Source: an uncultured Bacteroidia bacterium
GTDB taxonomy: Bacteria; Bacteroidota; Bacteroidia; J057; CALAJH01
DNA: 57,605 bases
Direction: 5' to 3'
Assembly: GCA_937922655.1 (NCBI GenBank)
Contig: CALAJH010000030.1
Coordinates: forward strand, 128,107-185,711
Part shown: positions 5,768 through 57,605 of the stretch, in pieces
How positions within the stretch are numbered: position 1 is the first letter of the stretch
How the letters are laid out: each line of letters begins with the position of its first letter
Position numbers and translations under genes: made by a program
Notes under the pieces: model-generated
Databases searched by the model: none
The model's input: the letters and a program-made list of their open reading frames with translations, nothing else
Told to the model about the DNA's origin: nothing

Positions 5768-5775
5768 CAAAAATA
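5768..5775 (-). promoter_or_regulatory. Promoter of the collagen-like surface protein gene
   Basis: Minus-strand TATTTTTG (TAnnTTTG), with TTTG (5796-5799) exactly 20 bases upstream as the -33 element. The predicted transcript starts about 20 bases before GTG 5744. The rest of 5776-5982 shows no gene. Confidence 0.65.
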
Positions 5776-5982
5776 GCGATTCGCCGCGAACCCGGCAAAC
5801 TCCGGCCGCATTGAAACGGCAATTCAAAAATTTCAACGGCGCCGTTCATTGCGTCGTCAAGCCCCTCGCGTGCGGACTCGGTCCGTACGTCGTCGTTGTT
5901 ATCGTCGGGTTTGGGTTGTGGTATTGGAAGTTGTTTGACGTGTACATCGCCGATTTTAACCGCGTTTTACCCGTAGGGAATA

Positions 5983-27413: not shown

Positions 27414-27458
27414 GCATAAATAACGTATTTCTTATTTGCTTGTAAAGTTACATTATCC

Positions 27459-27466
27459 TAACTTTG
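27459..27466 (+). promoter_or_regulatory. Promoter of the ADP-ribosylglycohydrolase-uppP operon
   Basis: TAACTTTG with TTTG (27435-27438) exactly 20 bases upstream. The leader is about 35 bases to GTG 27508. The -7 sequence and spacing are the same as in the CRISPR repeat at the right end of the window. Confidence 0.65.
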
Positions 27467-36619: not shown

Positions 36620-37217
36620 CCTTGAAGTCGTGAAGCCGACCGGCCTCAAGCTCGCGTACTATCGCCTCGATATGAACTTCTTTTTCCTTGTCGTATTCGA
36701 GTTTGAGGTCGGTACCGAACACTTTGGCCACCAACTGCCAAACCCCCGCCGAACGTTTGTTTTTGTACTCCTCGATTAAATCGTAAGCCCGCGAACCCGT
36801 TTCTCGGTGTATGAGTTTAATCAATATCTTTCCTTGGGTAACCGTCAATTGGGTGATTTCGCCTTGGTAGCGTTCGAAAAGTTCTTTTTCGAGGCGGTCG
36901 AGGTATTTGTCGCGTTCCCGTTCGGTTTGGGTTTCGGCCAGTTTTGCGTTTACTTCGTTGATGACGATGGCGCATTTTTTGGCCAAAGGATAAACGATTT
37001 CTACGTTTCGGCGGAGGCGGTTGTATTCGGTTTTGCGTTTTTGTTGCTGTTTGAGGGCCTTTTTCGAGGCTTTGTCGACGATGTAAACGGTATTGACGTG
37101 GACGACGGGAACGCCGTCTTTGGCTTTGCGAAACTTTTTTTCTCCTTTCTCGGCGGTATCTTGAGCGGAGCATAACCCCGCGCTCCATACCGCAATGACG
37201 ATGGCCAAAACCGACAT
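36606..37217 (-). CDS. DUF4294 protein, probably periplasmic
   Basis: 203 residues. A signal peptide (MSVLAIVIAVWSAGLCSA) is followed by a charged region, then the DUF4294-like core: VVHVNTVYIVDKAS, YNRLRRNVEIVYPLAKKCAI, LFERYQGEITQLTVTQGKIL, LIHRETGSRAYDLIEEYKNK. This family is common in Bacteroidota and has no established function. The promoter directly upstream is one of the best matches in the window. The last 14 bases overlap the 3' end of the convergent sensor kinase gene. Confidence 0.88.
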   Translation of the reverse strand: MSVLAIVIAVWSAGLCSAQDTAEKGEKKFRKAKDGVPVVHVNTVYIVDKASKKALKQQQKRKTEYNRLRRNVEIVYPLAKKCAIVINEVNAKLAETQTERERDKYLDRLEKELFERYQGEITQLTVTQGKILIKLIHRETGSRAYDLIEEYKNKRSAGVWQLVAKVFGTDLKLEYDKEKEVHIEAIVRELEAGRLHDFKVIYH

Positions 37218-37232
37218 GATTTATTTTTGATT

Positions 37233-37240
37233 CAAAGTTA
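37233..37240 (-). promoter_or_regulatory. Promoter of the DUF4294 gene
   Basis: Minus-strand TAACTTTG with TTG (37261-37263) exactly 20 bases upstream and ATG 15 bases downstream. Sequence and spacing are identical to the promoter-like core of the CRISPR repeat. Confidence 0.7.
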
Positions 37241-37263
37241 TGAATTCGGCAAAAACCGTGCAA

Positions 37264-50207: not shown

Positions 50208-51110
50208 TTAGTAATACAGGCTTGCGGCGAAGCGATAGGCCTCGACATAGGCCCGCAGGAGGTCGTTGAGGTTTTGGGGGTAGCCGCCGCCCATGACGAC
50301 GACCATCGGTTTGTTGCGACGATGGACGGATTGGATGACGAATTTGTCTCTTTGTTTGACGCCTTCGAGCGAAAGGGAAAATTTTCCGAGTCGGTCGCCG
50401 TCCATTACGTCCATACCGGCGATGTAATAGACCAAATCGGGGTTGAACGTGGTTAAAATCGGCGGTAAAACGTCTTGAAGCGTGGTTAAATAGGCGTTGT
50501 CGCGGGTAAAGGCGGGAAATTCCACGTCGAGCGACGAACGTTCTTTTTTAAGCGGATAGTTGTCTTTGCAATGAAAAGAAAGGGTGAAAACGCGGGGTTC
50601 GTCGGCAAAGATGGCGGCGTTTCCGTTTCCTTGATGGACGTCCAAATCCACGACCAAAACTTTGTTTACTTTTCCCGTCGCCAAAAGGTGTTTTGCGGTG
50701 CATCCGATATCGTTGAAAACACAAAAACCTTCGCCGCGGTCGGCAAAGGCGTGGTGGGTTCCGCCCGCCAAAGTAACGGCCAATCCGTTTTTTAACGCAA
50801 AAATCGAGGCCTGCCACGTTCCGCCGACCGAGGCACGCGATCGGACGACAAGTTCGGGTGATTGCGGAAATCCCAAGCGTCGCTCTTCTTGTGGCGAGAG
50901 GGCAAGCGTGCAAACTTTATCCCAATATTCGGGGGTGTGAGCGGCAAGTATCAGTTCGCGCGACGCGGGTTGGGCGAGTATGAAGTCGTTTTCGTCCGCA
51001 ACGCCTTCATACATCAGCTGTTCGCGTAAGAGGGCGTATTTTCGCATCGGAAAGCGATGGTTTTCGGGCAATGGAACCGGATATACGTCGGAATAAATAA
51101 GCGGTAGCAC
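50208..51110 (-). CDS. Histone-deacetylase-family (AcuC-like) deacetylase
   Basis: 300 residues from GTG 51110. Family hallmarks: LPENHRFPMRKYALLREQL at the N-terminus, GGTHHAFADRGEGFCVFND (His pair and zinc Asp region), VVDLDVHQGNGNAAIF, YIAGMDVMDGDRLGKF, and MGGGYPQNL. The enzyme is a zinc-dependent deacetylase of small amines or acetyl-lysine. The open frame continues upstream to a TTG at 51212, but those 34 codons lie in an IS1-family relic (HSKVLRQVKKNYDFETFANS resembles the end of IS1 transposase), so they are not part of the ancestral protein. The GTG itself sits in the IS end. No promoter box was found immediately upstream. Confidence 0.88.
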   Translation of the reverse strand: MLPLIYSDVYPVPLPENHRFPMRKYALLREQLMYEGVADENDFILAQPASRELILAAHTPEYWDKVCTLALSPQEERRLGFPQSPELVVRSRASVGGTWQASIFALKNGLAVTLAGGTHHAFADRGEGFCVFNDIGCTAKHLLATGKVNKVLVVDLDVHQGNGNAAIFADEPRVFTLSFHCKDNYPLKKERSSLDVEFPAFTRDNAYLTTLQDVLPPILTTFNPDLVYYIAGMDVMDGDRLGKFSLSLEGVKQRDKFVIQSVHRRNKPMVVVMGGGYPQNLNDLLRAYVEAYRFAASLYY

Positions 51111-51480
51111 TAAACCGATAAGGATAAGTTGTATCGATAAAAACGAATCCGAGTTGGCGAACGTTTCGAAGTCGTAGTTTTTTTTAACTTGGCGCAAGAC
51201 TTTCGAATGCAACGTACGGTTAAAACGCTTGACGCGTCGGGTTTGCTTTTGGGGAGTATGGATGTTTCGGACGTTCCCCTGAACGATGGTCTTGCAAGTT
51301 TCGAATAAATTGGCAACACAATTTTAGACCCAAAAAATTGAAATTCAAATTCGATTCCACCATTTTGTAAAAGTTTTGGCGTTTCGATTTCCGACGGCAA
51401 AGACCGGACAATTGGCTTGTTGCAAGGTAATCCATGCCCGTTTTTTGTTGTTTTTATTCTTCCAAAACGTACGTAAGGAT
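51103..51480 (-). mobile_element. Relic of an IS1-family element (3' half)
   Basis: This stretch aligns by eye, base by base with gaps, to the right part of the IS1-family element at 56496-57267: GGTAGCACTAAACCGATAA here against GGTAGTGTTAAAATGATA there, and CGATTTCCGACGGCAAAG against CGGTCTCCGACGGCGAAG. In translation, frame pieces such as LSGLCRRKSKRQNFYKMVES and SKVLRQVKKNYDFE correspond to TGLRRRRPKHRNVLKIVES and SKISRLVEKSYFFAE of the other copy. The first half of the element is missing and several frameshifts are present. The terminal GGTAG lies at 51103-51107, a few bases inside the HDAC-like gene. Confidence 0.7.
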
Positions 51481-55671: not shown

Positions 55672-55679
55672 CAAAAATA
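55672..55679 (-). promoter_or_regulatory. Promoter of the PAS-SpoIIE phosphatase gene
   Basis: Minus-strand TATTTTTG with TTG (55700-55702) exactly 20 bases upstream, 20 bases before ATG 55651. Confidence 0.65.
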
Positions 55680-56110
55680 TATCATACTGCGTTGTCATAC
55701 AATTTTTGGGTCGGAAAGAGTATGATAATTGCATTAAATATTGTTTAATCCAATTTATACACATAAATAATGGATTTTATAATATTTTTGTGATAGACAA
55801 ACAAAATTTAGTAATGTTTTTGATGACCGGCATCAAAAAAGTCTAATTAACGGCAGATTTTACTGGGAAATGTCATTTACCAACGAGAATGAACATTTAC
55901 CGTGTCGGCATTGGGGGAATAAATTTTGAGTGGAATAATGGCAAAGTCGTGATCCTATTTCGAATATTTCGAACTGAGGCGGTGTAGTTATCGAGTTTTA
56001 ATTGTCGAAGTTCAAATTGAAATACTGTTTAAGAAACACGTGAAATGGTAATTTGATGTAATACAATTACAAAATCGGATTCGATAGAAGAATGTTTCCT
56101 TACGATTTTT

Positions 56111-56495: not shown

Positions 56496-57267
56496 GGTAG
56501 TGTTAAAATGATAGGTTGTAGTGATAAACGGCCAAACCGCCGGAAGCAATGAATGCGTCGATGGATTCGGCAAAGAAATAACTTTTTTCAACCAAACGTG
56601 ATATTTTGGAGCGTAACGCGCCGTTCAAACGTTCGACGTGGTGGGTCCGGCTTCTTTGATATTGAGGGTGACGCACGTCTTTATTGGGAACAACTTTTTT
56701 GTAAACCTCGTATAAATCGGTATAAAAAAGGGAATTTTTTTGAGATGCGTTGGAATTTGATTCCACGATTTTTAAAACGTTTCGGTGCTTCGGTCTCCGA
56801 CGGCGAAGGCCGGTAATCGGCTTGTTTGACGGCATAATACTATTCGAATCCGGTTTCTGTTCTTTTGACGTCCTACAAACACACAAAGTTCTCCAACTCA
56901 AAGATTAAATCCTCTTTTTTGAGTTGTTTGTGCTCTTTACATCCCAAACAATGTGGAACGCTTTTATACCAACTGGACAAAAACCCTACGAGCCGGGTCA
57001 AACTTACATCGAGGACGCGGCAACCGGCGCGAAGCGAAATCCGTTCTTTGCGCATGCGTTTGGCAAGGATGTGAACTTCGGTTTCGACGACTTTATGGGT
57101 CGGATTTTGGGCGAATCGGCTCCGACAATTTTTACCCAAAAAACATGGTTTTGTGTTTCGTTCTCCGTACGATATTGCGGCTTCTTCGGGCCGGGCATGT
57201 CGAAAGATTCATCATATAAATATCGTGCTTTCGGATATTTTTTTATCATTACCTCTGGTATACTACC
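56496..57267 (-). mobile_element. IS1-family insertion sequence, 772 bp, degraded
   Basis: The ends read GGTAGTGTTAAAATG (left, 56496) and, on the other strand, GGTAGTATACCAGAGG (right, 57267). They are imperfect inverted ends that give an element length close to that of IS1 itself (768 bp). The transposase inside is broken by frameshifts. No target duplication is evident at the flanks. The right end lies 22 bases before the first CRISPR repeat. Confidence 0.75.
56503..57212 (-). pseudogene. IS1-family transposase, broken by at least two frameshifts
   Basis: Reading from ATG 57212: MNLSTCPARRSRNIVRR (zinc-finger start, second Cys replaced by Arg) breaks at a T/G run near 57145; the next frame continues KNCRSRFAQNPTHKVVE and RKERISLRAGCRVLDVS (helix-turn-helix), and shifts again near 56885 after EDLIFELENF. 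The last frame carries the C-terminal catalytic part: FYTDLYEVYKKVVPNKDVRH, HHVERLNGALRSKISRLVEK. The order is that of IS1 InsA-InsB. IS1 elements naturally use one programmed -1 frameshift, but two separate shifts plus a lost zinc ligand point to an inactive copy. Confidence 0.75.
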
Positions 57268-57289: not shown

Positions 57290-57605
57290 GTTGTGAATGG
57301 ATTTCAAAATAGGTAACTTTGCAACAGAAGTGCTTTTCGACCTCGTTTACGACAAGTTGTGAATGGATTTCAAAATAGGTAACTTTGCAACGCGGAAAAG
57401 CGCAAAATCGAACGGTGGTCAGTTGTGAATGGATTTCAAAATAGGTAACTTTGCAACTCCAACTCCATCTCTATCCCGAGTTGAACGGTTGTGAATGGAT
57501 TTCAAAATAGGTAACTTTGCAACCCCCGTCGCTCGCGTGCAGTTACCCGTCGCGTTGTGAATGGATTTCAAAATAGGTAACTTTGCAACTCCACGGGGGT
57601 AAGTG
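57290..57605 (+). CRISPR. CRISPR array (five repeats visible, continues beyond window), type II-C-like
   Basis: Five identical 36-base repeats start at 57290, 57356, 57422, 57488 and 57554. Each begins GTTGTGAATGG, has TTTCAAAATAGG in the middle and ends TAACTTTGCAAC. The four complete spacers are all 30 bases (57326-57355, 57392-57421, 57458-57487, 57524-57553); a fifth is cut at 57605. No cas gene lies in the window, so the type must be inferred. The opening GTTGTGA, the central TTTCAAA and the TAnnTTTG segment recall Bacteroides-type II-C repeats, and 36/30 geometry fits. Type VI-B has the same geometry but its repeats fold more strongly. Bases 2-4 (TTG) and 25-32 (TAACTTTG) form a promoter match reading into each spacer. 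Confidence 0.95.
57291..57321 (+). promoter_or_regulatory. Promoter embedded in the CRISPR repeat (first copy; same in all five)
   Basis: TTG (57291-57293), 20 bases, then TAACTTTG (57314-57321). The same boxes and spacing occur at 37233-37263 (DUF4294) and 27435-27466 (ADP-ribosylglycohydrolase) in front of real genes. Transcription is predicted to begin at about the first bases of the spacer. Copies recur at +66, +132, +198 and +264. Confidence 0.55.

Follow-up and report, generated by a model that had tools for sequence, protein, structure and literature searches.

Promoters inside CRISPR repeats are a known property of some type II-C systems. In Neisseria meningitidis, as later papers recount the work of Zhang et al. 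2013 (PMC5006608, PMC7038990, PMC10309648), each repeat of the array contains a promoter. A repeat promoter was also proposed for Flavobacterium columnare, on the basis of a TTG element and eight reads (PMC8092290), and a repeat-encoded promoter for F. psychrophilum (PMC10309648). For CRISPR1 of Riemerella anatipestifer, a II-C array with a 47-nt repeat, the authors state that the repeats hold no promoter (PMC5006608). Primary promoters of Bacteroides, recognized by sigma-ABfr, consist of TAnnTTTG at -7 and TTTG around -33 (PMC7366714).

The window analysed here is a stretch of 57,605 nucleotides from an uncultured Bacteroidia bacterium, at whose end lies a CRISPR array. Taken as a whole, its repeats are best explained, and in our judgement with good likelihood, as carrying a sigma-ABfr-type promoter that would drive the transcript of each spacer.

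The array and the promoter grammar of its host

Five identical copies of a 36-bp repeat, GTTGTGAATGGATTTCAAAATAGGTAACTTTGCAAC, alternate with spacers of 30 nt (Table 1); the window stops inside the array because contig C30 (185711 bases) stops there. No further copies of the repeat were found elsewhere in the 3.58-Mb assembly, and an Rfam search of the window returned zero RNA families. The regular repeats of about 36 nt with unique spacers of about 30 nt are as expected for a type II-C CRISPR-Cas system, and the array is best explained as the leader-distal end of such an array. As the first-pass annotation had described, TTG occupies nt 2-4 and TAACTTTG nt 25-32 in 5/5 repeats, on the + strand and with a gap of exactly 20 bases.

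Between the array and the gene of a PAS/SpoIIE-domain protein, positions 56503-57249 hold broken, overlapping short ORFs that resemble insertion-element remnants; two of these ORFs gave no match in Pfam. Farther away, a gene for a histone-deacetylase-family protein (PF00850) occupies 50208-51212 on the - strand.

Table 1. Coordinates of the array and of the four further TTG-N20-TAnnTTTG sites in the window.
Feature	Position	Strand	TTG	TAACTTTG	Predicted start
Repeat 1, leader-distal end, first in crRNA sense	57290..57325	+	57291-57293	57314-57321	~57328
Spacer 1, 30 nt	57326..57355	+			
Repeat 2	57356..57391	+	57357-57359	57380-57387	~57394
Spacer 2	57392..57421	+			
Repeat 3	57422..57457	+	57423-57425	57446-57453	~57460
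Spacer 3	57458..57487	+			
Repeat 4	57488..57523	+	57489-57491	57512-57519	~57526
Spacer 4	57524..57553	+			
Repeat 5	57554..57589	+	57555-57557	57578-57585	~57592
Spacer 5, incomplete at contig end	57590..57605	+			
TTG-N20-TAnnTTTG before 1150-aa ORF, start 5744	5768..5798	-			
TTG-N20-TAnnTTTG before gene with GTG start 27508	27436..27466	+			
TTG-N20-TAnnTTTG with TAACTTTG, before gene with ATG start 37217	37233..37263	-			
TTG-N20-TAnnTTTG before PAS/SpoIIE-domain protein gene, start 55651	55672..55702	-			

The same spaced pair recurs outside the array. TTG-N20-TAnnTTTG is found nine times in the window, five of them in the repeats, against a mean of 0.62 in shuffles, of which 0/100 reach nine; with gaps of 19 and 21 bases the pair occurs once each, which is the chance level. 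Each of the four non-CRISPR sites is followed, 15-42 bases downstream on its own strand, by the start codon of a long ORF. They are the sites that had been named at first sight, with coordinates right to within one base. The genes that start at 37217 and 27508 are presumably those of a DUF4294 protein and an ADP-ribosylglycohydrolase, the names that they were given then.

We derived the promoter grammar of the host from 187 upstream regions (38.8 kb), drawn from about 450 kb of the 3.58-Mb genome, by masking the array and counting every ABnnCDEF pattern against shuffles. TAnnTTTG emerges at the top, in 83 regions where 18.3 are expected (z 15; the next pattern reaches 6.8), and neither TATAAT nor TTGACA is enriched in these regions. 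Gaps to a preceding TTG are most often exactly 20 bases (10/85), all other gaps having counts of 0-5. Since TAnnTTTG is the pattern most enriched upstream of genes and TTG peaks at 20, the repeat follows the promoter grammar of its host, which agrees in turn with the Bacteroides consensus (PMC7366714). Both parts of a sigma-ABfr-type promoter are present: the -7 element in 5/5 repeats and a TTG near -33, at the gap that the host uses. Scored with a matrix trained on 66 genomic sites, the site of the repeat ranks at their median. The assignment of the element to the Bacteroidota promoter type, 20-base gap included, holds at the level of sequence.

Cas9, tracrRNA and the sense of the repeats

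A single type II Cas9 gene is present in the genome (TIGR01865, E 4.7e-172); it lies on contig C32, with a type II cas1 behind it. This contig ends within the reading frame after cas1, so that any genes farther on, where a csn2 (II-A) or cas4 (II-B) might lie, are beyond the assembled sequence. The 12.7-kb stretch around cas9 contains no anti-repeat; a genome-wide pattern search located one on contig C44 (locus L012), 213 bases from the contig start.

The tracrRNA gene at L012 213-318 consists of the anti-repeat, a nexus-like hairpin and a terminator, the last being a strong GC hairpin with T's after it. Its transcript pairs with nt 1-24 of the repeat with one 2-nt bulge, at -23.9 kcal/mol, whereas the most stable pairing among 3000 random 30-mers from this genome reached -16.8 kcal/mol. 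The gene has a promoter of its own, TTG-N20-TAAATTTG, positioned for a start at the anti-repeat; gene and promoter together span L012 177-318.

The pairing of the tracrRNA with the first 24 nt of the repeat identifies the + strand of the window as the crRNA sense. The proposal that the promoter points into the spacer is borne out independently by this pairing: its sequence stands in the crRNA sense in 5/5 repeats, as in arrays of the Neisseria kind. Pairing stops at nt 24, and the -7 element begins at nt 25. The array (C30), cas9 (C32) and the tracrRNA gene (C44) are on separate contigs, each of which breaks near its CRISPR part; we join them by the pairing and by there being one of each, rather than by positional linkage.

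Repeats of type II-C systems across phyla

We collected Cas9 loci of Bacteroidota genomes and of named genomes of many phyla, and called all arrays with one script. Repeats were oriented by their 5' GTTGTG end, because anti-repeat complementarity is nearly symmetrical. Among 70 Bacteroidota arrays, 38 contain TAnnTTTG, exact or with one mismatch, in the 3' part of the repeat; another 27 have a -10-like hexamer at the repeat end, and the remaining 5 lack both. For 35 arrays from other phyla, these numbers are 2, 28 and 5.

Collapsing the repeats at 80% identity left 20 non-redundant sets in Bacteroidota and 22 in other phyla. A near-exact -7 element is present in 15/20 of the former and 1/22 of the latter, and a terminal TAnnnT in 4/20 and 20/22, respectively; in the other phyla this end is sigma70-like and shuffles yield 1.6. 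Fisher tests of the two contrasts give p values of about 3e-6 (-7 element) and 5e-6 (terminal TAnnnT), both overstated as the clusters are non-independent. TAnnTTTG is also the commonest ABnnCDEF-type pattern in the 3' parts of Bacteroidota II-C repeats. A phylum-specific element appears to have replaced the usual -10-type repeat end.

The full pair, TTG-N18-21-TAnnTTTG with at most one mismatch, occurs in 10/20 non-redundant Bacteroidota repeats, versus 1.1-2.0 in shuffles and 2 on the reverse strand. None of the 22 II-C repeats of other phyla (36 nt, the fair control) has it, nor does any of the 23 type I/III repeats from Bacteroidota, which at mostly 28-32 nt are a weak control for an element of 29-32 nt. 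The enrichment that the first-pass annotation had anticipated is thus seen against every one of these comparisons. On its own, the TTG at nt 2-4 counts for little as evidence: II-C repeats usually begin with GTTG in every phylum of the survey, and in this sense the TTG comes free to a chance match in an AT-rich repeat. Such a match is nevertheless very improbable: the exact pair is found in 4/20 Bacteroidota repeats, where shuffles give 0.08-0.12, and in 0/45 of the two control sets, and its gap in the window is the peak of the genome's own promoters.

The -7 element in Bacteroidota II-C repeats is common, not universal. The suggestion that it might be general in the phylum was therefore too strong: it stands for 15 of the 20 non-redundant repeats, but Flavobacterium-type and some other repeats end in GATATT, TAGATT or TACATT and do not contain TAnnTTTG. 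Hosts of GATATT repeats still use TAnnTTTG before their genes, at 1.9 times expectation versus 0.75 times in other phyla (counted with arrays masked).

Could the element be kept for Cas1-Cas2 integration or for RNA processing, its likeness to a promoter being inherited or accidental? The 3' end of a repeat is also an integration site, many repeats of the large clade with 46-47-nt repeats are related, and copies would be identical whatever their function, since repeats are duplicated in full. Part of the conservation among related repeats reflects shared ancestry. Yet in related Cas9/Cas1 systems of other phyla, just the one set of 22 keeps the motif, and the repeats end in another promoter-like sequence. 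TAnnTTTG sits 3-17 nt from the 3' end of the repeat, and its distance from the 5' TTG is nearly constant: the element mostly ends at nt 28-35, although repeats span 36 to 47 nt. As this distance is kept across repeat lengths, the motif is not tied to the spacer junction. In relatives with 46-47 nt, a long type that includes 47-nt TATCTTTG repeats, transcription is predicted to start while still some 8 nt within the repeat instead of in the spacer. A third geometry is seen in the related repeats of L056, L059 and L060, with an exact TAnnTTTG at nt 21-28, 16 bases after TTG.

The motif also precedes the tracrRNA, which is no repeat. We located tracrRNA genes in nearly all survey loci; an exact TAnnTTTG lies at most 25 nt before the anti-repeat in 30/67 Bacteroidota loci (about 1.8 expected), compared with 1/35 in other phyla. 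Its gap to TTG in Bacteroidota is mostly 20 (10 cases) or 19 (5 cases).

Finally, the motif is found again in several separate branches of a Cas9 tree of 103 sequences. On this tree, 7 changes are needed to account for the Bacteroidota -7 label, at least 6 of them forced by well-supported branches, and 8 changes with exact motifs only; the one-mismatch labels include likely chance hits (L052, L089). The Cas9 of the window's genome clusters with that of L053 (SH-aLRT 88), whose repeat has the exact motif, and falls outside the large 46-47-nt-repeat clade. Altogether, a role in integration or processing without promoter activity seems improbable to us.

As the changes may be losses or gains, the tree supports, without proving, repeated acquisition. 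We judge it an even call whether the II-C repeat promoter follows the primary sigma factor of its host, being a sigma70-like -10 outside Bacteroidota and having been replaced by TAnnTTTG several separate times within. If so, the recipient's sigma factor would constrain both the repeat sequence and the horizontal transfer of II-C systems, and a repeat would reveal the sigma type of the phylum to which its system belongs. It would amount to a testable rule that ties the evolution of CRISPR repeats to the host sigma factor.

One further locus concerns transfer. On a Rhodothermales MAG contig (L235, 5302-5954), Cas9 groups with Alphaproteobacteria; the repeat ends in GGTAACTTT, while the end in its relatives is GCTAAACT. 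This may be a -10 end that is turning -7-like after transfer.

A probable promoter in every repeat and its described counterparts

The repeat of the window can be viewed as two joined parts: nt 1-24 would serve as the guide handle for the tracrRNA and nt 25-32 (TAACTTTG) as the -7 element, with the -33 element (TTG, nt 2-4) embedded within the handle. Polymerase carrying sigma-ABfr, the primary sigma factor of Bacteroidota, would bind every repeat and start about 7 nt beyond the final G of TAACTTTG, at around base 3 of the next spacer. The predicted transcript consists of about 28 nt of spacer and the next repeat, whose first 24 nt would pair with the tracrRNA. Cas9 would then take up the crRNA-tracrRNA complex, and the 3' part would be trimmed. 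The repeat-embedded promoter is probably real and functional; what we infer from it is that transcription begins at these very sites, that most crRNA comes from them, and where precisely its 5' ends lie.

Repeat copies in the survey retain the putative promoter half. Over 1067 copies, the six fixed -7 positions are changed in 1/6402 cases versus 32/4268 at nt 1-4. In 17/78 arrays, the leader-distal first repeat (first in the crRNA sense) is decayed in its 5' part but intact in its 3' part, and an extra partial unit that keeps the 3' part is present in 12 arrays; zero units in the 78 arrays keep only the 5' part. There are exceptions: in two first repeats the changes extend to the last base (in one of these, no other position is affected), and one is changed at both ends. 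The 5' part of a first repeat is free to decay because it is never the handle for a spacer, and the only use left for the 3' part would be that of a promoter. Since an edge effect could look alike, the decay pattern is supporting evidence only. Decayed terminal repeats lose TTG, so the -33 element would not be essential there. Handle halves are lost and promoter halves kept in leader-distal repeats of L062, L065, L069, L072, L077, L087, L230 and others, and the same is seen with -10-kind ends; such handle loss could be a general sign of repeat-embedded promoters.

It is also conceivable, if rather unlikely, that the repeat promoters work but are minor, and that most crRNA derives from a longer transcript begun outside the array and cut by RNase III with the tracrRNA. 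Read-through from the leader-distal flank is compatible with the sequence, and for the II-C array of Clostridium cellulolyticum the authors left both routes open (PMC7038990). However, the 300 bases ahead of the first repeat contain no TTG-spaced TAnnTTTG at up to one mismatch, and decayed first repeats that keep their promoter half are unexpected if these halves do nothing.

If the repeats do act as promoters, most Bacteroidota II-C arrays would make each crRNA from its own promoter. Leader-distal spacers would remain expressed and arrays would be readable without a leader. On the same condition, as the first-pass annotation proposed, the 5' ends of crRNAs would require no processing and distal spacers would escape dilution. 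A single repeat could then be used as a compact promoter in Bacteroides tools.

Compared with the Neisseria meningitidis array, as the papers cited above describe it, the present system shares an in-repeat promoter sequence facing the spacer, a short crRNA predicted to start within the spacer, and the set of Cas9, Cas1, Cas2 and tracrRNA. In those accounts, the Neisseria promoter is an extended -10 (TACAAT type) formed by the last bases of the repeat; here, 4 bases separate a -7 TAnnTTTG, preceded by TTG-N20, from the end of the repeat. In Neisseria, transcription from repeats is reported as demonstrated, whereas the promoters of the window are deduced from sequence.

Closer by phylum are the II-C arrays of Flavobacterium columnare and F. 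psychrophilum, where TTG lies about 33-35 bp before each spacer and transcripts run toward the leader (PMC8092290, PMC10309648). These papers identify no -7 element in the repeats, and the surveyed 36-nt Flavobacterium-type repeats end in GATATT, without TAnnTTTG. The first-pass annotation had suggested that the feature might be unremarked. This stands for TAnnTTTG inside CRISPR repeats and for the contrast between phyla, of which we found no report in the open-access literature, but not for repeat promoters as such, given the two Flavobacterium proposals.

Riemerella CRISPR1 shares with surveyed repeats the long GTTG...CAAC repeat family and the tracrRNA anti-repeat family. Surveyed repeats of its general type, compared by type rather than by the exact Riemerella sequence, mostly have a near-consensus -7 element, which would reopen the published statement that the repeats of this 47-nt system hold no promoter. 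The sigma-ABfr promoters of Bacteroides (PMC7366714) are built of the same two elements, but normally stand before genes and sRNAs. Altogether, repeat-embedded promoters are of an already known kind; the sigma-ABfr-type element and its phylum-linked swap with the -10 end look new.
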